Below are positions 17,416 through 27,909 of a DNA stretch of 33,717 nucleotides, in pieces. The first letter of the stretch is position 1. Every line of letters begins with the position of its first letter. Under the pieces are notes generated by a model that saw only the letters and a program-made list of their open reading frames with translations, was not told where the DNA came from and did not search any database. Source of the stretch: Ruminococcus flavefaciens. Its GTDB lineage: Bacteria > Bacillota > Clostridia > Oscillospirales > Ruminococcaceae. The stretch is from NCBI GenBank assembly GCA_002373775.1, contig DFJW01000019.1:1-33717 (forward strand). Reading direction: 5' to 3'. The position numbers and the translations under genes were made by a program.

Positions 17416-19104
17416 TTAAGAAAGAAGCATGCGTCTGAGCGATACCATATCGAATATATCTACGATACCGTCTTTGTATATATCAGCATTCTGCCAGTAG
17501 CTTATAACAGCACTGCTGTCTGAGATGAGCCATTTCTGAAGGCACACAGCATCAGCGATACCTACTGTTCCGTCGGAGTTCACATCGCCTCTGATGTGTT
17601 CGGTCACTTCTCCGCCGCCCTGACTGCCTTCGCTGCTCATTCTGCCTGCATGAGCCATTACATCGGCTTTTGCTTCATCCGGAGTCTGAGTCTTGTAGCT
17701 GTACATATCAAGGTCGAAATTATCATATCCTTCACCGCCTGCGATGAGATTCGGGATCTCCGGCTTATCTGTTCTGCCGGATACTATGCTGTAGGCAAGA
17801 CCTTCATCCGGCGCACAGTTGTCGAATTTGTCCCCGAAAGACTTGATCGTTCCGGAATACTGATCCTTGCCCATATTTATAGCATACAGTGGTGAATTTG
17901 TCTTTTCGAAATAATTCGCCTCAGAGAACACTTTTGAATTGTATGAAGCACAGATGCCATAGTCCGAGTTGGTGGAAAAATAATTGTTGAATGAGTGGAT
18001 ATGTGCATTTCTTGCGCGTGGATTTCTTGAATGTGTATTGTTGAACCAGTTGTGGTGATAAGTTATATAATCCTGCATCTGGTCATATCTTCCTCCGACA
18101 AGGGATGTCTTGTGGCAGTCCTTGAAGACATTGTATGAAACTGTGACATATTCAGACCATTTCATATCCACAGAACCGTCGCCGTCAGCCTTGTCTGCAT
18201 CAACATGTCCGCCGCCGGCGAACTGATTATACCCCTTTTCGATAGTGTTGTTGTGTACCCAGATATGAGCAGAACGGATGTCAGCATTTCCGGTCATGGA
18301 TATTCCGTCATCGGGATATCTTCCGAGCCAGAGATTTCTTACTTCACAGCTGGTGCAGCGCTTCATTTCGATTCCCCACTCAATGAGGTCAGTGTCCGGA
18401 CCTATGCCCTCTATCGTGACATTTGAGCTGTTCTGGAGATAGAGCATATTCGAGCCGTCATTGTGGCTGCCGTCGTTGGCTACAGTCCCGCTGGGGACAT
18501 CAAGTCTGCCTATGAAACGGAAAACAACGTTTTTAGGCTTGGCGCTGAAGAAAATATTGTAGAGACCGGTCTTTCCGTTATAGGTGATAGTATCCTTGTT
18601 TTCGTTGGTCACATAAATGACTGTGACATCCGGTTTGAGTGTACCGTCATCGTTATATGCTCCGATGCCGGAGTAGTTATAGTGAGCATAACCGCTTCTG
18701 TCAAAGGTCATGGTTTTTACGGTACATTCCGCCTTGCCGGCTGAACCTTCGATATGAATGGTGTACTCCGTATTGCCTTTGAGTCCGGGAATGTCAACTC
18801 TTGTGCCGCGGATGAGTTCGCTGTCCACCTGAACAAGCTCATTGCTTCCCGCTTCTGAATAGCTGACTGTTACGCCGCTGCCTATGGCATTGCTGTCCCA
18901 TTCAGCATAAGCCTCTTCGTACCATCCGCCGCAGAGAGTTACAGCACTCTTTGAATCGGCGGCAGATGCCAGCCCTGTGAGTGAAACAGACAAAGCGTTG
19001 TCACCGGCTAAAACACTGCCCGGAAGAATTGTTGTTAATTGTGCTAATGATGTGACCGCAGCCGCTATAACGGCAGCCGTCCTTTTCTGGATAAGTTTTT
19101 TCAT
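17416..19104 (-). CDS. cellulosomal pectate lyase, PL1 family, with dockerin
   Basis: A 562-residue secreted enzyme that cleaves polygalacturonan by beta-elimination. A signal peptide (about 1-33), then a beta-sandwich segment (about 36-130), a PL1 right-handed beta-helix (about 135-440) and a C-terminal type I dockerin. PL1 marks: SSNVTIEGIG, IWVHNNTIEKG, WSEYVTVSYNVFKDC, HHNWFNNTHSRNPRARNAHIHSFNNY (with the expected Arg) and NYFE. The dockerin has two calcium repeats, GDVNSDGTVGIADAVCLQKWL and DIYKDGIVDIFDMVSLRRML. MKKL at 19104 is preferred to the ATG two codons earlier because GAGGGG then sits 7 nt away. Confidence 0.95.
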   Translation of the reverse strand: MKKLIQKRTAAVIAAAVTSLAQLTTILPGSVLAGDNALSVSLTGLASAADSKSAVTLCGGWYEEAYAEWDSNAIGSGVTVSYSEAGSNELVQVDSELIRGTRVDIPGLKGNTEYTIHIEGSAGKAECTVKTMTFDRSGYAHYNYSGIGAYNDDGTLKPDVTVIYVTNENKDTITYNGKTGLYNIFFSAKPKNVVFRFIGRLDVPSGTVANDGSHNDGSNMLYLQNSSNVTIEGIGPDTDLIEWGIEMKRCTSCEVRNLWLGRYPDDGISMTGNADIRSAHIWVHNNTIEKGYNQFAGGGHVDADKADGDGSVDMKWSEYVTVSYNVFKDCHKTSLVGGRYDQMQDYITYHHNWFNNTHSRNPRARNAHIHSFNNYFSTNSDYGICASYNSKVFSEANYFEKTNSPLYAINMGKDQYSGTIKSFGDKFDNCAPDEGLAYSIVSGRTDKPEIPNLIAGGEGYDNFDLDMYSYKTQTPDEAKADVMAHAGRMSSEGSQGGGEVTEHIRGDVNSDGTVGIADAVCLQKWLISDSSAVISYWQNADIYKDGIVDIFDMVSLRRMLLS

Positions 19105-19318
19105 AATCATGCCCCTCTGAATAAATAAAATAAGAATAAAGTGATTTGTATCTATAAGAAAATGATATCATTAATGCACCGATTGTTGAATGATAAATCG
19201 TGCTCTAAAAATGATAATGTGAGCTTTTTTAATCAGTTTATGATAGAGATGCCGCTTTTTTGTTCGTTTATATAAAGCTTTGTTCCTTATTCATCCCGTG
19301 AGAATGATAAAATAATCC

Positions 19319-20947: not shown

Positions 20948-21004
20948 AGCCGCTGATATCAGCGGCTGAGAAAGCAAAACGGCTCCGGTGAAAACCAGAG
21001 CCGT
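20948..21004. terminator. paired hairpins between converging genes
   Basis: AGCCGCTGATATCAGCGGCT (20948-20967) is a 20-bp perfect palindrome preceded by five A, so it terminates minus-strand transcripts. A second hairpin, ACGGCTC-c-GGT-gaaa-ACC-a-GAGCCGT (20979-21004), follows with TTTTGCTTT on the minus strand. Together they separate the ABC-F gene from the 21011 operon. Confidence 0.75.
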
Positions 21005-21010
21005 AATTTG

Positions 21011-21703
21011 TTAGTTTTTATTGGACTTGCAGATTATGTTCCTGTCCTCAAGTGCTTTTCCGACCTCTTTGCAGAGTATCACTGCTCCGGGATCGCGGTT
21101 CGCTACAGCAGTTTCAAGCTGACCGAACAGATTATTGAGATTGAACTCAGCAGCTGCTGTAGCAGGACTGCTTACCGGATCACTGTAAGTGAAGCTTTCC
21201 GAGAGTTTTGTCAGAGCTGAACGGAGTTCAGCGTTATCAGTCTTGTTGGAAAGTCCCTGAGCTCTCATGGCGAGATTCTTCATGAGTCGTGTATCCACTA
21301 CTGTCTTGTTCTCGATGTTAGTTATCTCATCCCTTGCGATATTCGTTGTGATACCGCATACAAGTGCGGCGGCGAGAACGAGTATGCAGAGCAGAGCTGC
21401 GAGCCATACCGGGAAATCCTCCGATTGACCGGCAGCAATGAGAATGATCGAAAGCACTGTTTGTGCTGCAAGGTAGATGATGCCTACTCTGAATATCGGG
21501 AAACCGAGGACCTTGCTTTTTAGTTCTGCACCGTCATATGCCAGCTTGAAAACAGGCACCTGAAGTCCTATGGCAAGCATTTCAGCGCCGTATCCTATCC
21601 ATGCAACTGATGTGTATTCGATAGGCAGGAGGAAGAATACAGCAGAGAATACAACAGCCAGTATGGCGATAATTATATAGATCTGAGATCTTGTCTTATT
21701 CAT
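21011..21703 (-). CDS. four-helix membrane protein of the TIR/SPFH operon
   Basis: A 230-residue protein, last gene of the 25166-21011 operon. Four hydrophobic segments (about 8-26, 33-50, 67-88 and 96-118) are followed by a soluble, helical tail of about 110 residues (NIARDEITNIENKTVVDTRLMKNL and AEFNLNNLFGQLETAVANRDPG). I do not recognise the family. MNKTRSQ at 21703 is preferred to an ATG two codons earlier because AAAGGAG in the end of the SPFH gene is then 7 nt away; the first ATG would overlap the SPFH stop as ATGA. Strong coupling suggests a membrane partner of the SPFH protein. Confidence 0.75.
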   Translation of the reverse strand: MNKTRSQIYIIIAILAVVFSAVFFLLPIEYTSVAWIGYGAEMLAIGLQVPVFKLAYDGAELKSKVLGFPIFRVGIIYLAAQTVLSIILIAAGQSEDFPVWLAALLCILVLAAALVCGITTNIARDEITNIENKTVVDTRLMKNLAMRAQGLSNKTDNAELRSALTKLSESFTYSDPVSSPATAAAEFNLNNLFGQLETAVANRDPGAVILCKEVGKALEDRNIICKSNKN

Positions 21704-21705
21704 GG

Positions 21706-23523
21706 TCATTCTCCTTTCCTGTGTCCGCAGTTATTGCAGAAATTTCCGGTATTTCCTTCATGTCCGCACTCTGGGCAGTCCCATGCAGCGTCGTTTGCAG
21801 CCGGACGCGGCTTTCCGCACATGTTGCAGAAGTTCCCGGTAACGCCCTTGTTTCCGCATTCACAGTCCCATGTATCAGCTGCCTTAGGACGCGGTTTTCC
21901 GCACATGTTGCAGAAATTGCCGATCACGCCTTTATTTCCGCATTCGCAGTCCCATGTATCAGCAGCTTTCGGACGCGGCTTGCCGCAGATATTGCAGAAG
22001 CTGCCGGATGTGACGCGATTGCCGCATTCGCAGTCCCATACATTCGCATCAGTCATAGTGTTTCCTATAGATGAAGCAAGACCGGCAGCGGGAGTGAACG
22101 CATCCTTAGTCATGTTCATTACACCGCCCATAGCACCAAGAGCAACTCCGAGACCTGCCACATCAGCGATACCGCTGCCGCCTGAGCCGCCGCCCATGTT
22201 CTCAACAGCGCCGAGACCAACCTGACGTGCTGTCTCCTGCTGATAGGTGAAGCCCTTCATGCGCATCTCAGCTGCTTCAGCTGCTGCTTTGATCTTGAGA
22301 GCCTCAGCATCACCCTGAGCACCGATGACCTTGATGCTTGCTGCGGTAGAAGCTTCGACCTTCTGCCTTTCAGCACTTGCCTCAGCCTCCGCTTTTCGTA
22401 TCTGTTCCTCGCGCACTTTAAGGTAAAGATCGGCATGCTGCTGTTTCAGGCGCTTGAAATTCGGATCGTCGTCCGGAGTCATCACGGAAGTAACGAAGAA
22501 TTCCGGCATGAACAGACCATAATCTTCGAGGTATGTATTGATGCACTCGCAGAGTTTCAGTGATAACTCATCGAGGTGAGAATCTATCTCAAGGATATCT
22601 ATGCTGTTCTCTTTGATTATGCGTGCAAGATTGCTCTTGACTGTGGTCATTATCATCGCCTTGAACTTGGCGACGGAAGGTTTGAGACCGAATACGCCGT
22701 CCACCACATCCGCATGGGTGAACTCATTTGCTGTGCCGACGAGTTTGACAAGGAGCTTTCTGGAATCCTTGACACGGATATTGAACTGACCGTTAGCACC
22801 TATCTCAACAGGGATGCCAGTGACCGGCTCATAGAATCTTACCTTGGAATCAGTCCCCCACTTGATGCCCATCTGAGTGGTCATGTTTATGAAGTAGATT
22901 TCAGAATGGAATATGGTATCGGCATTAGTCGGGATCTTATACAGCTTTTCGATCAGTGGAAGATTCTGAGTCACAAGAGAATGTCTGCCTGCGCCAAAGA
23001 GGTCAAGAGCCTGACCGTCACGGAAGAAGATAGCTTCCTGTGACTCATGAACGATCAGCTGTGAGCCGTAATTGAAGTCCTCTATGGGATGCTTCCAGAC
23101 GAGTGTCTGATTATCGCCTTCATACTTTATGACGCTTGCAAGTCCCTGATTCTTGATCTTCTCCTTTTCTATCCGTTCCTGAACATCTATGACAGTCTCA
23201 CAGAGAGGACAGGTATATGTATCCGCATTTTTGTCTGCAACGAGATTGCATGAGCAGCTCGGGCAGGTGAATTCAGCCTTATTGCGGATATTATCCCCTG
23301 CATTTATCTTTTCCTTGCAGACAGGACATATAGCCTTGTCGCCCTTTGACTGATCGAAAACAACATTGTTGCCGCAGTGAGGGCAGTATCTTGATGTCAT
23401 CTTGTCGGTCTTAACATGGATCTTGTATCCGCAGGCGCAGTCAATGGTCTTTTTAGCAAAAAAGCCCTTTGAAGCTTCAGTGTATCTTCCGCACTGAGGA
23501 CACTCGATAACGAACTTTGCCAT
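21706..23523 (-). CDS. SPFH-domain protein with zinc ribbons at both ends
   Basis: A 605-residue protein. Residues 1-115 hold several Cys-pair zinc ribbons (CPQC, CPHC-CPVC, CPSC-CPLC). An SPFH/band-7 domain follows (about 130-370; the YdjI-like, so-called virion core protein group), then an Ala/Glu-rich coiled coil (REEQIRKAEAEASAERQKVE onwards), a Gly-rich stretch (about 435-485) and a tail of four WDCxCG...FCNxCG zinc ribbons, three being near-identical 28-29-residue repeats. No membrane helix is seen, so membrane contact would be peripheral or via its partners. In B. subtilis YdjI links PspA to the membrane with YdjG and YdjH; a similar envelope-stress role is inference. AAGGAGG precedes ATG 23523. 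Confidence 0.85.
   Translation of the reverse strand: MAKFVIECPQCGRYTEASKGFFAKKTIDCACGYKIHVKTDKMTSRYCPHCGNNVVFDQSKGDKAICPVCKEKINAGDNIRNKAEFTCPSCSCNLVADKNADTYTCPLCETVIDVQERIEKEKIKNQGLASVIKYEGDNQTLVWKHPIEDFNYGSQLIVHESQEAIFFRDGQALDLFGAGRHSLVTQNLPLIEKLYKIPTNADTIFHSEIYFINMTTQMGIKWGTDSKVRFYEPVTGIPVEIGANGQFNIRVKDSRKLLVKLVGTANEFTHADVVDGVFGLKPSVAKFKAMIMTTVKSNLARIIKENSIDILEIDSHLDELSLKLCECINTYLEDYGLFMPEFFVTSVMTPDDDPNFKRLKQQHADLYLKVREEQIRKAEAEASAERQKVEASTAASIKVIGAQGDAEALKIKAAAEAAEMRMKGFTYQQETARQVGLGAVENMGGGSGGSGIADVAGLGVALGAMGGVMNMTKDAFTPAAGLASSIGNTMTDANVWDCECGNRVTSGSFCNICGKPRPKAADTWDCECGNKGVIGNFCNMCGKPRPKAADTWDCECGNKGVTGNFCNMCGKPRPAANDAAWDCPECGHEGNTGNFCNNCGHRKGE
21784..22038 (-). repeat. three tandem zinc-ribbon repeats in the SPFH gene
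   Basis: Two 84-bp and one 87-bp copies encode WDCECGN....G.FCN.CGKPRP with short KAADT linkers; a more diverged fourth ribbon (WDCPECGHEG) ends the protein. Near-identity of copies suggests recent duplication or recombination. Confidence 0.85.
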
Positions 23524-23564
23524 TAGAATTCCTCCTTGGTATTGTTATGATATAAGACTTGTAT

Positions 23565-25166
23565 CTATTTCTTTTTCGGCTTATGTGTTAAATAAACGAT
23601 AAGACTTATGATCCCCACGATCAGCGCAAACATAGCTTCCCCTTCTCCGTCATTGCTGCTGCATACGAAGAACAGTACTATGCAGATTATCATTATGATC
23701 TGCGAAAGGTTGGCAATGGTCTTGTTCTTTTTCTGTTTTTTCCTTGCAGCGATGAGCTCGCTCTTTCGGCGCTCAGCCTCTGCGGCAAGCATAGCCTCTT
23801 CCTTCTGCTTGTCGGCAGCTTTCTGTGTCACATCACTGCGGACCATGGAGGCGATGCCGTTGTAGATATGGGAGAACTCCTTTTTGTCATCACCTCTTGC
23901 GAAGGCGATCGCATTTTTCAGGGAATTTCCGATAACGTACTGGATATGGTCATTATAGACCGCTTCGCTTGAAACATCATATCCATAGCCTCTTATGTAC
24001 TTGACAGAAAAGCGGTTGATAGTTTCAGGTGAATAAAGCTGATTTCCGATACGGCATGAGTTTTCAGCAAGGAATTTATAATAATACGCCTGTGCGCACT
24101 CAGGGTTGAGGTCGAGGACCTTTTCGCAGTACTGAGAGGCATTTGTAAAGTCTCCGTCATTGAGGAAAATATTGATCCTCTTCAGCAGCTTATCTTCGCT
24201 CACCTGCGGGGAAGCTGATGACTTTGACGCTGAAGATGGCGTATACTGAGTCGGTCTGTTCATTGAAGAAGGAGAGCCGACTACTTTTTTTATACCATGG
24301 ATAAGATCGTTGATAAAACCGATCTTTTCCATATTCTGAGCCTGAAGGTGAGAAAACTCAGGCGGCAGGTCATATGGATCCATATCCTTATAACATGGGA
24401 TGAGCAGTTTACTGTGGTCGGTCTTTACCAGCTTCAGGAATCTGCTCCATTCATTTCTTACCCATACCGCGCTGAAATACTCCAGCTTTGTACCTATAAC
24501 GAGCATGACCTTTGCAGTATTTATTGCAGCGAAGATATAGGGTTCATATTCCTGACCGAGTTTATCTTCAAGTGTTATAGCCGCATAGAATACCTTATAG
24601 CCGGCATTGACAAGCTGATAGTAGATATCATTGGCGTATACACTGTCGCGTGTCTTCTCACCGTTCTCATCAGTCTCCTTGTAGCATATGAAGACATCGA
24701 ATGGCTTTTCATTCTGAACTATGCGCAGGATACTTCTCTGTAATTTGTCGATCTCCTCAGCTTCGGCTTCGTATATTTCCCTCTGTCTGGGATCGGCATA
24801 GCTGATAGCAGAATTGTAGTCAACATCCGAAACGACTGATTCGAACTGAGTTCTGTGACATGTTGGTACGCGCTTGAAGGTCGCAGGATCTTCGACGTAC
24901 TCGATACCAAACTTGCAGAGCACCATTCCCCAGTACGCTTCCGAGTCATCAGGGGCAAGAGTAACGACTTTTTCGTACAGCTCCTGAGCTTTGTCGAATT
25001 CATTCTTCAGTCTCAGATTATTTGCACGGTCGAAAAGCTTCTGTGCATTTTCATCCGCCACTGACGGGATGGTCTGGAGAGTACCGCAGTATTCACATTC
25101 GCATACCTTTTCGCCATTTGTATAGTCAAGTGCACCGCCGCACATTTTACATTTGTAGATCGCCAT
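23565..25166 (-). CDS. TIR-domain protein with zinc ribbon, TPR and membrane anchor
   Basis: A 533-residue multidomain protein, first in a three-gene operon. Order: zinc ribbon (CKMC and CEYC, 6-27), TPR-like helices (about 38-85, FDRANNLRLKNEFDKAQELY), TIR domain (about 154-295), a Ser/Pro linker, a second TPR-like part (about 320-440), a charged coiled coil, and two C-terminal membrane helices. The TIR domain starts KPFDVFICYKETD and has VWVRNEWSRF, where Glu239 aligns by eye with the catalytic Glu of NAD-cleaving TIRs (WVHKE in SARM1). MAIYKC at 25166 follows GGAGGA; the longer frame needs TTG. Function unknown; NAD cleavage or signalling is possible. Confidence 0.88.
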   Translation of the reverse strand: MAIYKCKMCGGALDYTNGEKVCECEYCGTLQTIPSVADENAQKLFDRANNLRLKNEFDKAQELYEKVVTLAPDDSEAYWGMVLCKFGIEYVEDPATFKRVPTCHRTQFESVVSDVDYNSAISYADPRQREIYEAEAEEIDKLQRSILRIVQNEKPFDVFICYKETDENGEKTRDSVYANDIYYQLVNAGYKVFYAAITLEDKLGQEYEPYIFAAINTAKVMLVIGTKLEYFSAVWVRNEWSRFLKLVKTDHSKLLIPCYKDMDPYDLPPEFSHLQAQNMEKIGFINDLIHGIKKVVGSPSSMNRPTQYTPSSASKSSASPQVSEDKLLKRINIFLNDGDFTNASQYCEKVLDLNPECAQAYYYKFLAENSCRIGNQLYSPETINRFSVKYIRGYGYDVSSEAVYNDHIQYVIGNSLKNAIAFARGDDKKEFSHIYNGIASMVRSDVTQKAADKQKEEAMLAAEAERRKSELIAARKKQKKNKTIANLSQIIMIICIVLFFVCSSNDGEGEAMFALIVGIISLIVYLTHKPKKK

Positions 25167-25221
25167 TTCTATTCCTCCGGCATCCAATATATGTGAAATA
25201 ATTCCACAATAAATTACCTAC

Positions 25222-25250
25222 ATTATATCACATTATTATGAAAATAGCAA
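25222..25250 (-). promoter_or_regulatory. sigma-A promoter of the TIR/SPFH operon
   Basis: Minus strand: TTGCTA (25250-25245), a 17-bp spacer and TATAAT (25227-25222) with extended TGA. Its upstream flank, GTCCCTTGCTATTTT, is nearly the same as that at 12494-12509. The leader contains GTGGAA-tta-TTTCAC (25206-25192). Confidence 0.8.
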
Positions 25251-26075: not shown

Positions 26076-27827
26076 TCAATCAGTTACGGGAAGAGCTTCA
26101 ACTATTCCGAGCTTGTATCCCTGTATAGCTGCTGCATCTGCATTTGTAACTCCGTCTCCGGGATTGCAGCAGTCGGCATTCGCAAGTCCATTCTTTGTTA
26201 TGCCGTCCGGCTTTCCTTCTCCGTAAGTATCGGGATTCGAAAGATACTGCATTACAAGTACTGCATCTGCCATATTCACTTCTTTGTCTTCGTTAGCATC
26301 GCCGTAGACAACATTTGCGGGTGTTGTAGTCGTTGTTGTGGTCGTGGTGGATGTGGTAGTTGTTGTCGTTGTGGTAACAGTCGTTGTCTTTGTTGTACTT
26401 GATCCCGATTGGCTTCCGGAATAGTACTCAGAAAGTGAGATACCGTCCTTGCCCATCGGGTATTTGTGGTCAAGGCTTATATATCTTCCGTTCTCATCAT
26501 GCCAGAGAGAATCCTTTATGAACTCATATTTCACATCATCCCACTTCTGGAAGTTGTCATACATAAGTCCGCCCGTATCTGAGGAATTCTCATTGAAGCA
26601 CCAGAAAGTGTGGTGGATATGCTTATCTATGATATAATCTCTGAGTTCCTCAAGCCAGTGAACGTTCTCGCCGGTCTTATCATGCTCTTCGTCTACCCAG
26701 CCTCCCCATTCACCAATGAGGACAGGTGCTATCTTCTCCTCGACAAGGAAAGCCCATGTACCGAGCCAGTAATCCTCCAGAAGCGTCTCACGGCTGAATG
26801 TCTTTGTAGGATCGTCAAGATAGAACCACTTCTGCTTGTATACCTCCGGACCATAATCGTGGGGAGAATAAACAAGTTTGTCCTGATGCTCTCCAAGGTC
26901 TATCGGACAGTCCCTTACTCCGCGGAGATTTGCTCCCCACCATGCTCCCCATACCTTGCTGGGCTTATCATAGTTCGAATAGTCAATTAAAGGTGTGGTC
27001 CAGTCTGCGCCCTGATCGAATTTAGGATAGCATTCGATACCCTCTACCATTATGAGAAGATTCGGATTCTGGTCGAGGCATGCCTTTGCACCGCGCTCGG
27101 CAGCATACTTCCAGTTGTTGATATCCTTAGAATCATCCCACTTTGCAAATTTTCCTGACTCAGGCTTGCCGTGGGGTTCGTTCTTGAGGTCGATAGCGAT
27201 GATGGTATCATCATCCTTGTAGTACTCACAGAACCATGAGAGGGCTTCGAGCCAGTCATCCGTGCTGAAATTCTCGTCATACCAGAGCGGTATCTCGTGT
27301 CCTGAAGCATTGGTGGAAGGGCTGTGGATATCTATCATTATCTTTATTCCCTTTTCTTTGCACCAGCCTACTACGATGTTCCATATGTCGAAGCTGTACT
27401 TTGGCTTGCCTCCCTGCACACCTTCGACTGTCAGCTCAGGGTTCTCATATTCATTGAGCTTTATCATGGGGTCCGGCTTTCCTTCTTTCCACTGAAGAAG
27501 TATCTCTGTAGACATCGGGACACGGAGAAGATTGAAACCGTGATCTGCTATAAGGTCAAGACAGTGTTCAACATTCGCAGACCATGCACCGTCAAATATC
27601 TGGCTTCCTACATTGTAACCAAACCAGTTTATACCTGTGAGCCATACGGGATTGCCGTACATATCGACTATCTCTGCATTCTCATTGACATGGAGCCAGT
27701 CATCGTGATACTCGTCAGGCTCTGCACTGCTGGCTGTAAGCTGAGACGATGTCCTTCCGACCGGGATAAGAGCTGTACATAATGCGGCTGCAAGGGCAGC
27801 TGCTTTTTTCAAAATAATCTTAGCCAT
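26076..27827 (-). CDS. cellulosomal GH5 endoglucanase with dockerin
   Basis: A 583-residue secreted beta-glycanase, probably an endoglucanase acting on cellulose or related beta-glucan. A signal peptide (about 1-35), GH5 barrel (about 45-435), Thr-rich linker (about 470-505) and a C-terminal type I dockerin. The acid/base Glu217 is in DLKNEPHG and the nucleophile Glu373 in LIGEWGGW; RVPMSTE and SPHDYGP are also typical. The dockerin has repeats GDANEDKEVNMADAVLVMQYL and the more degenerate CNPGDGVTNADAAAIQGYKL. MAKIIL at 27827 is preferred over an ATG two codons earlier that abuts GAGAGGGA. It has a perfect consensus promoter. Confidence 0.95.
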   Translation of the reverse strand: MAKIILKKAAALAAALCTALIPVGRTSSQLTASSAEPDEYHDDWLHVNENAEIVDMYGNPVWLTGINWFGYNVGSQIFDGAWSANVEHCLDLIADHGFNLLRVPMSTEILLQWKEGKPDPMIKLNEYENPELTVEGVQGGKPKYSFDIWNIVVGWCKEKGIKIMIDIHSPSTNASGHEIPLWYDENFSTDDWLEALSWFCEYYKDDDTIIAIDLKNEPHGKPESGKFAKWDDSKDINNWKYAAERGAKACLDQNPNLLIMVEGIECYPKFDQGADWTTPLIDYSNYDKPSKVWGAWWGANLRGVRDCPIDLGEHQDKLVYSPHDYGPEVYKQKWFYLDDPTKTFSRETLLEDYWLGTWAFLVEEKIAPVLIGEWGGWVDEEHDKTGENVHWLEELRDYIIDKHIHHTFWCFNENSSDTGGLMYDNFQKWDDVKYEFIKDSLWHDENGRYISLDHKYPMGKDGISLSEYYSGSQSGSSTTKTTTVTTTTTTTTSTTTTTTTTTPANVVYGDANEDKEVNMADAVLVMQYLSNPDTYGEGKPDGITKNGLANADCCNPGDGVTNADAAAIQGYKLGIVEALPVTD

Positions 27828-27909
27828 TGCCATTCCCTCTCAATACATTGTACCAATGACCTGATACTGCGGAAAAAGGTACATATTCACAGAATCATCT
27901 GCACTCATA

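Follow-up and report, generated by a model that had tools for sequence, protein, structure and literature searches.

A TIR protein encoded with an SPFH protein and a four-helix membrane protein in Ruminococcus flavefaciens: a probable defence complex of YdjGHI-like anatomy

Among described systems, the one closest in anatomy to the locus reported here is the pspA-ydjGHI operon of Bacillus subtilis, which encodes a zinc-ribbon membrane protein (YdjG), a membrane protein (YdjH) and an SPFH protein (YdjI) and in which, according to the consulted passages of two reports (PMC8581546, PMC9239133), YdjG and YdjH are required for membrane recruitment of YdjI and PspA. Other points of reference are the TIR proteins AbTir, SPARTA TIR, Thoeris ThsB and TIR-STING, which are known as cytosolic proteins and carry the TIR fold with a Glu in a WxxxE motif. 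Here we describe an operon in a 33,717-nt stretch of Ruminococcus flavefaciens DNA (contig DFJW01000019.1; hereafter “the window,” to which all coordinates refer) in which a TIR protein with that same Glu is, unlike those NADases, predicted to be membrane anchored, bears a zinc ribbon and TPRs, and is encoded with an SPFH protein and a four-transmembrane (4TM) protein, together called the hub. The operon probably encodes a TIR-armed, YdjGHI-like membrane complex for defence. The association of the three gene families elsewhere is far above chance and is not a local accident, and the three genes very probably form one functional unit.

The three co-directional open reading frames (ORFs) are open on the minus strand (TIR, 25166-23565; SPFH, 23523-21706; 4TM, 21709-21011), with 41 nt between the first two and an overlap of 4 nt between the second and the third (for which ATG 21703 is an alternative start), all as the original prediction, a note made from the DNA letters, had placed them. 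For the TIR gene, the start ATG 25166 was preferred over TTG 25187 (stop, 23565). With a promoter-like site and terminator-like hairpins included, the operon spans 25250-20948 and has the following parts:

25222..25250, minus strand: sigma-70-like promoter site, TTGCTA-17-TATAAT with TG ahead of the -10 (10/12 consensus matches)
23565..25166, minus strand: zinc ribbon-TPR-TIR-TPR-two-helix membrane protein, 533 residues (ORF; TIR_2 and TPR models over cut-off; Cys alignment; structural model)
25077..25166, minus strand: its N-terminal zinc ribbon, residues 1-30 with C6, C9, C24 and C27 (Cys alignment)
24912..25040, minus strand: first TPR stretch, residues 43-85 (Pfam TPR_2 at 43-74, TPR_14 at 46-79; helices in the model)
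24270..24707, minus strand: TIR domain, residues 154-299
24450..24452, minus strand: putative catalytic Glu239 in WVRNEW (alignment column)
23832..24197, minus strand: second helical/TPR stretch, residues 324-445 (Pfam TPR_1 at 330-357; predicted local distance difference test [pLDDT] mostly >90)
23586..23717, minus strand: predicted transmembrane (TM) hairpin without ectodomain, residues 484-527, with the two ends predicted to lie inside (hydropathy scan)
21706..23523, minus strand: SPFH protein, 605 residues (Pfam Band_7_1, PF13421, 129 bits, cut-off 24)
23149..23523, minus strand: its N-terminal zinc-ribbon region, residues 1-125 (Cys pairs in the sequence)
22468..23082, minus strand: Band_7_1 (SPFH) domain (Pfam)
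21709..22038, minus strand: four C-terminal zinc-ribbon repeats of the SPFH protein, residues 496-605 (read in the sequence)
21011..21709, minus strand: 4TM protein with helical tail and YSDPxS and DRNxxCK motifs, 230-232 residues (35 relatives besides itself; alignment; model)
20979..21004, minus strand: intrinsic-terminator-like hairpin 3' of the operon (hairpin scan)
20948..20967, minus strand: second such hairpin (hairpin scan)

The single promoter proposed at 25222-25250 is a consensus match only; such sites number 10 in the region against 6.9 +/- 2.7 in shuffles, which is not clearly in excess, and the site taken alone is a weak candidate.

The neighbourhood search suggested by the original prediction was carried out on genome samples of the family (197 genomes, the window's own included), the order (245) and the phylum (398), with strong matches defined as E <1e-60 for TIR in the family sample and E <1e-30 for the 4TM profile. 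In the order, the TIR protein matched 24 genomes, strongly in 20 that span 17 genera, while the 4TM profile matched 25 at E 1e-4 and 18 at E <1e-30. With the caution that this profile was built partly from TIR-adjacent 4TM proteins and that genomes are not independent, a strong 4TM match was present in 17 of the 20 strong-TIR genomes versus 1 of 225 others (G196; Fisher 3e-22), and a match of any strength in 17/20 versus 8/225 (Fisher 2e-17); the four weak-TIR genomes all lacked it. Single-sequence searches of the family gave a similar picture (4TM in 12 genomes; TIR in 16, strong in 13), with 4TM found in 9/13 strong-TIR genomes versus 3/184 others. The TIR protein family is large (at least 7,999 matches at E <0.001 in one protein search), and only 2 of the 398 genomes of the phylum sample had a TIR match, one being the window's own. 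When strong-TIR genomes were pooled from the three samples, 24 of 31 had a 4TM protein; among the seven without, two have an SPFH gene adjoining the TIR gene (G015, locus L112; G197, locus L114) and in a third, G329, an SPFH gene located away from the TIR gene has a neighbour weakly like 4TM (L116). At the level of fetched loci, which were annotated with profiles built from the same loci, 27 of 50 TIR genes (profile E <1e-100, at least 400 residues) lay within 5 kb and on the same strand of an SPFH or 4TM gene; where 4 kb of DNA was available on both sides, 19 were linked and 14 were not.

Two gene orders recur: TIR-SPFH-4TM, in which a long SPFH protein bearing zinc ribbons at its N-terminus is frequent, and SPFH-4TM-TIR, in which ectodomains are. 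A very divergent 1470-residue zinc-ribbon-TIR protein adjoins SPFH and 4TM-like genes in L135:4326-10242 (G198:C7). In L082:726-2774 and L084:12456-14372, an intact TIR gene is followed by one for a second TIR-like membrane protein in which, by eye, WxxxE is absent and which is perhaps a catalytically dead partner. TIR genes broken by stops or frame breaks in L079, L096 and L127 perhaps reflect decay or assembly errors.

The layout proposed for the first gene, a zinc ribbon followed by TPR, TIR and TM segments, was borne out by Pfam TIR_2 (42.5 bits, cut-off 28, residues 158-279), by several TPR models over their cut-offs, by the TM hairpin and by the four Cys of the ribbon, which are invariant in 50 aligned rows. 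No Pfam zinc-ribbon model passed its own cut-off in the three operon proteins, and the ribbons were recognised as Cys pairs. The predicted hairpin is flanked by K/R counts of 6/0 and 0/4 around its two helices. The Glu of WVRNEW indeed lies at residue 239, and the corresponding WxxxE Glu was kept in 176 of the 176 rows having that column (180 rows in total, with the window counted twice). Foldseek with the whole-protein model retrieved mostly TPR proteins, none at E 0.001, and solved structures found by sequence were mostly designed TPR and WD-repeat proteins; a second structural comparison matched the TIR model to plant, SPARTA, AbTir and SARM1 TIR structures. The TIR fold and the Glu support a window TIR of the catalytic type, from which NAD cleavage may be expected; TIRs of gut bacteria have been assayed for NAD products, according to the consulted part of one report (PMC9092222).

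The hub resembles YdjGHI in its parts. As with YdjI (consulted passages of PMC8581546 and PMC9239133), the window's SPFH protein lacks a TM, carries a zinc-ribbon region close to its C-terminus and is encoded with two membrane partners, one of them a zinc-ribbon protein; it differs in that the operon holds no pspA and the zinc-ribbon partner bears TPRs and a TIR domain. The SPFH protein was correctly described as carrying zinc ribbons at both ends. Zinc-ribbon tails of the same type were found on other proteins of the family sample, and PF13421 matches B. subtilis as well (control). We read this likeness, which is one of anatomy, as parts only and not as membership. Neither Pfam nor NCBIfam gave a match for the third protein up to E 0.1. 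Its AlphaFold2 model (mean pLDDT, 91) has four long N-terminal helices, in keeping with the four-helix membrane protein proposed earlier, but hydropathy gives three TMs in the window copy and four in most full-length relatives. Compared with PDB, the model had no clear match (best E, 0.18), which is not proof of a new fold, and searches of solved structures by sequence gave nothing useful for the 4TM or the SPFH protein. A likeness of the 4TM protein to SLATT was rejected (NCBIfam, 14.4 bits versus a cut-off of 41). A scan of genome contigs with the 4TM protein added one distant locus, L076, which was not used in the analysis.

The hub also occurs without TIR, as an SPFH gene with a 4TM or merely 4TM-like one, in L085-L089, in L117 and in L118 (a Bacteroides plasmid record with a weak 4TM match). 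In six of these seven loci, a zinc-ribbon or zinc-ribbon-TPR protein (ribbons judged by eye) is encoded next or next but one to the hub, with lengths of 355 (L086), 153 (L087), 562 (L088), 197 (L089), 464 (L117) and 192 (L118) residues; none was found in L085. The earlier likening of the parts to YdjG/H/I was apt in that most TIR-less hub loci have such a protein near their SPFH and 4TM genes. L117 lies on the 20.5-kb Butyrivibrio fibrisolvens plasmid pNP21 (NZ_CP146965.1), where genes for a restriction S subunit and for a toxin-antitoxin pair lie close to its SPFH, 4TM (split into two ORFs) and zinc-ribbon-TPR genes. Such TIR-less hubs, the service that such a complex renders PspA in B. subtilis (consulted passages of PMC8581546, PMC9239133) and the position of the window operon among ordinary genes would suit a module of envelope stress, in which a Psp/YdjGHI-type system for repair or surveillance is not immune and its TIR produces a small NAD-derived signal to tune physiology, without arresting the cell. 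We consider this unlikely. The sole pspA match of the window genome is unlinked, on another contig (G000:C47), and the genome has a second, different Band_7_1 operon (L137:2103-5211; G000:C2), in which genes for a zinc-ribbon protein and a small, membrane-like protein accompany one for an SPFH protein that ends in a zinc-ribbon tail; the patchy spread of strong TIR matches (20/245 genomes), the paralogue arrays and the ectodomain exchange described below suit conflict better than housekeeping.

Not all relatives of the window TIR protein share its C-terminal end. By a hydropathy scan, which is not a trained predictor, 68 of 170 TIR proteins (120 listed and 50 from loci) had a single TM with 60 or more residues after it, 36 had two TMs and a short tail, 17 had one TM near the end and 12 had three or four. 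In 67 of the 68 single-TM, long-tail proteins the TIR side was the more positive, as for TIR inside and C-terminus outside. Among the 120 relatives listed, 81 were longer than the window protein. Of the 28 near relatives P0002-P0029 (54-59% identity, 512-533 residues), 27 had two TMs and a short tail; the window copy is, by predicted topology, a sub-type with a TM hairpin and no ectodomain. The protein of L109, whose gene adjoins SPFH and 4TM genes, has TIR at 158-282, a TM at 539-557 and LRR_5 repeats from 604. A search for its relatives was restricted to proteins above about 550 residues, a choice that favours ectodomains, and among the 120 listed (97 distinct; families counted by eye) yielded 29 with LRR_5, 54 with DUF6273, 12 with RCC1 and 8 with InlB repeats (PF09479). 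One TM with a long tail was predicted for 111 of the 120 (LRR_5, 28; DUF6273, 52; RCC1, 12; InlB, 8), with the inside positive in 28/28, 51/52, 11/12 and 8/8, respectively; among the 170 TIR proteins above, some of the RCC1 type had no predicted TM. DUF6273 of phage tentaclins resembles a C-type lectin fold varied by diversity-generating retroelements, according to the consulted part of one report (PMC10743442). One TIR-DUF6273 protein with 79% identity to the L109 module (P0260) carries a Bacteroidales label, which points to transfer between phyla or to a misbinned contig. In L115:8880-10556 (G082:C56), RCC1 repeats are linked by a hydrophobic stretch to an SPFH domain, which places a receptor-type ectodomain on the scaffold.

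Judged by their sequences, ectodomains are exchanged between almost identical TIR modules. In 97 pairs drawn from 22 of the 68 single-TM proteins, the first 298 residues were at least 95% identical; the C-terminal parts had no match at E 1e-3 in 17, a match covering <40% in 41 and a match in 39, counts of exchange that metagenome chimeras could inflate. Within one genome (G650; 100% complete, about 20 contigs), identity between two array paralogues fell from 95% in the first 300 residues to 45% in the 200 that follow and 26% in a C-terminal stretch of 170 residues, and a third paralogue was 81-83% identical with no C-terminal match. The sensor in many relatives is probably this exchangeable ectodomain, attached to the TIR protein on the far side of the TM, rather than the SPFH scaffold. 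The idea that the scaffold watches the membrane while the TIR responds therefore stands in part: the three families belong together and the TIR is of catalytic type, but sensing in many relatives probably lies with the ectodomain.

The ectodomains, which are of adhesion and ligand-binding types (LRR_5, InlB repeats, RCC1 and the C-lectin-like DUF6273) and differ among paralogues of one genome in the C-terminal part, could also read bacterial surfaces, fibre or host glycans, with TIR signalling or executing competition or kin discrimination; such recognition of neighbours, host or substrate seems to us improbable, as the window sub-type is without an ectodomain and its operon has no recognisable secretion or immunity gene next to it (ORF list, by eye). 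Seen next to animal Toll-like receptors, the family looks like a bacterial counterpart, since some relatives, such as that of L109, join leucine-rich repeats, one TM and a TIR on the inside-positive side; they differ in the reversed order (TIR on the N-terminal side), in the LRR_5 (BspA) type of repeat and in the use of other ectodomains too, and the window protein, with its hairpin and no ectodomain, lacks that layout. We tentatively entertain the wider proposal that Clostridia of the gut and rumen type hold a large family of TIR proteins that are true transmembrane receptors, with a near-constant cytosolic zinc-ribbon-TPR-TIR part, one TM and a recombining ectodomain, in which a shared SPFH/4TM hub in cis or in trans would cluster the receptors and trigger NAD-based suicide. 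The window would then hold the hub with an ectodomain-less receptor, and a second receptor-like gene would lie elsewhere in the genome.

The defence reading of the operon draws further on companion genes. In 12 of 25 hub-TIR operons, 15 extra genes were chosen by place, with no random-locus baseline for family counts, and five of them were toxin- or conflict-like: SIR2_2 (L112), RES (L119), DUF4365 (L104, with a PADLOC Ago-REase match), a zinc-ribbon trypsin (L114) and HEPN pEK499_p136 (L110; 24 bits, under the 26.6 cut-off). Two companion genes of relatives match PADLOC models. Such companions are typical of toxin and abortive-infection systems, and the SIR2_2 and RES families consume NAD. 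A 404-residue gene in L097 that had been taken for SIR2 from its motifs was confirmed by none of Pfam, NCBIfam and PADLOC, aligned poorly to the SIR2_2 of L112 and was rejected. The TIR protein was found neither in plasmids (E 1e-10) nor in phages (E 1e-5). An IMG/VR contig with TIR and 4TM genes was set aside as viral evidence, being 100% identical over 10,463 bases to genome contig L110 and hence neither independent nor proof of a virus.

Patchy spread, paralogue arrays, ectodomain exchange, a TIR of catalytic type and toxin-like companions together favour a role in conflict, of which defence by depletion of NAD is the likeliest form. From the gene set and its conservation, the TIR fold with its Glu, the topology by hydropathy and the exchange of ectodomains, we infer complex formation, clustering, NAD cleavage, a trigger, a benefit to the cell and immunity, in the following manner. 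The 4TM protein would anchor the SPFH protein, which would oligomerise into a hub. The zinc-ribbon-TPR-TIR protein would replace the zinc-ribbon membrane partner and be kept at the hub as an inactive effector. The trigger might be membrane disturbance in the window sub-type, which has no ectodomain, and binding of an outside ligand in relatives with LRR, RCC1, DUF6273 or InlB ectodomains. Clustering would then join TIR domains, leading to NAD+ cleavage or an ADP-ribose signal and to arrest or death of the cell, with defence against phage or other invaders as the likeliest use. We give this full mechanism, from the TIR-armed signalling complex on a YdjGHI-like base through clustering to NAD-based arrest or death and defence, an even chance of being right.

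Several observations weigh against the defence reading. No TM was predicted in 37 of the 170 TIR proteins, and 10 of the 15 companions could be assigned to no conflict-type family (two DUF6273, in L113 and L079; two ordinary, both in L098; six with no convincing family). No PADLOC 2.0.0 model matches the three operon proteins up to E 0.1, the flanks of the operon look ordinary with no difference in G+C content, and its neighbours in the window show no recognisable defence gene (ORF list by eye; neighbours not PADLOC-scanned). Four of the 31 strong-TIR genomes (G044, G280, G318 and G332, three of them 64-89% complete) have neither a 4TM match nor a TIR-adjacent SPFH gene, although for G044 the SPFH search was confined to the surroundings of its TIR gene. 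Moreover, 23 of the 50 TIR genes have no hub gene within 5 kb, although one of these is part of the L119 array, whose hub is 11 kb away from it; hub adjacency is scattered on the TIR tree (17 changes versus a shuffled mean of 16.9), linked and unlinked genes being mixed, and was rejected as an inherited trait. Because many TIR genes are unlinked while most of their genomes hold the hub, one hub may serve several TIR proteins in trans. In the window genome, for example, a single 4TM gene coexists with two TIR genes, of which the one outside the operon sits on a different contig, immediately behind a chorismate synthase gene.

Two further points concern the TIR domain. The structure prediction called for earlier gave a TIR fold, in which residues 199-204 have pLDDT <50. 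According to the consulted part of one report (PMC7075850), the WxxxE Glu does not always mean NADase activity. A Glu that alone is no proof of activity and a pocket loop that is in part poorly modelled would be compatible with a TIR that is a structural adaptor only, oligomerising on the hub with no enzyme activity. This we regard as very unlikely, given that W235, N238, E239, W240 and R242 are invariant or almost so and that the SIR2_2 and RES genes among the companions hint at NAD as a shared target.

If the TIR-armed defence complex is real, how far does it depart from what has been described? Thoeris is set apart by its partners: the window TIR has SPFH and 4TM partners, no ThsA beside it and no PADLOC match of any kind. 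AbTir and SPARTA, in turn, were matched by the model in structure. An analysis of NTP-dependent conflict systems (eLife 2020;9:e52696, PMC7159879) reports, in its consulted part, modular TIR, TPR, zinc-ribbon, peptidase and Band7-like parts; no vWA, MoxR or GTPase core turned up in the genes that we scanned, and that part of the analysis holds no SPFH/4TM/zinc-ribbon-TPR-TIR set. In open-licence literature, among the matches listed, we found no description of such a set, in agreement with the original prediction that no described system has exactly these genes. What appears to be new is the combination of TIR and SPFH parts, each of a known kind, in a membrane hub whose ectodomains can be exchanged. 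If confirmed, bacterial TIRs would serve in membrane receptors with exchangeable ectodomains as well as in cytosolic sensors, and the role of SPFH scaffolds would extend from membrane repair to the organisation of immune signalling; this would bear on the possible origin of Toll-like receptors and make the link from a Psp/YdjGHI stress complex to TIR-based cell death directly testable. The operon itself is flanked, as judged by eye, by genes for apparently secreted proteins with dockerin-like repeats that resemble pectate lyases and cellulases (17416-19110 and 26076-27833).

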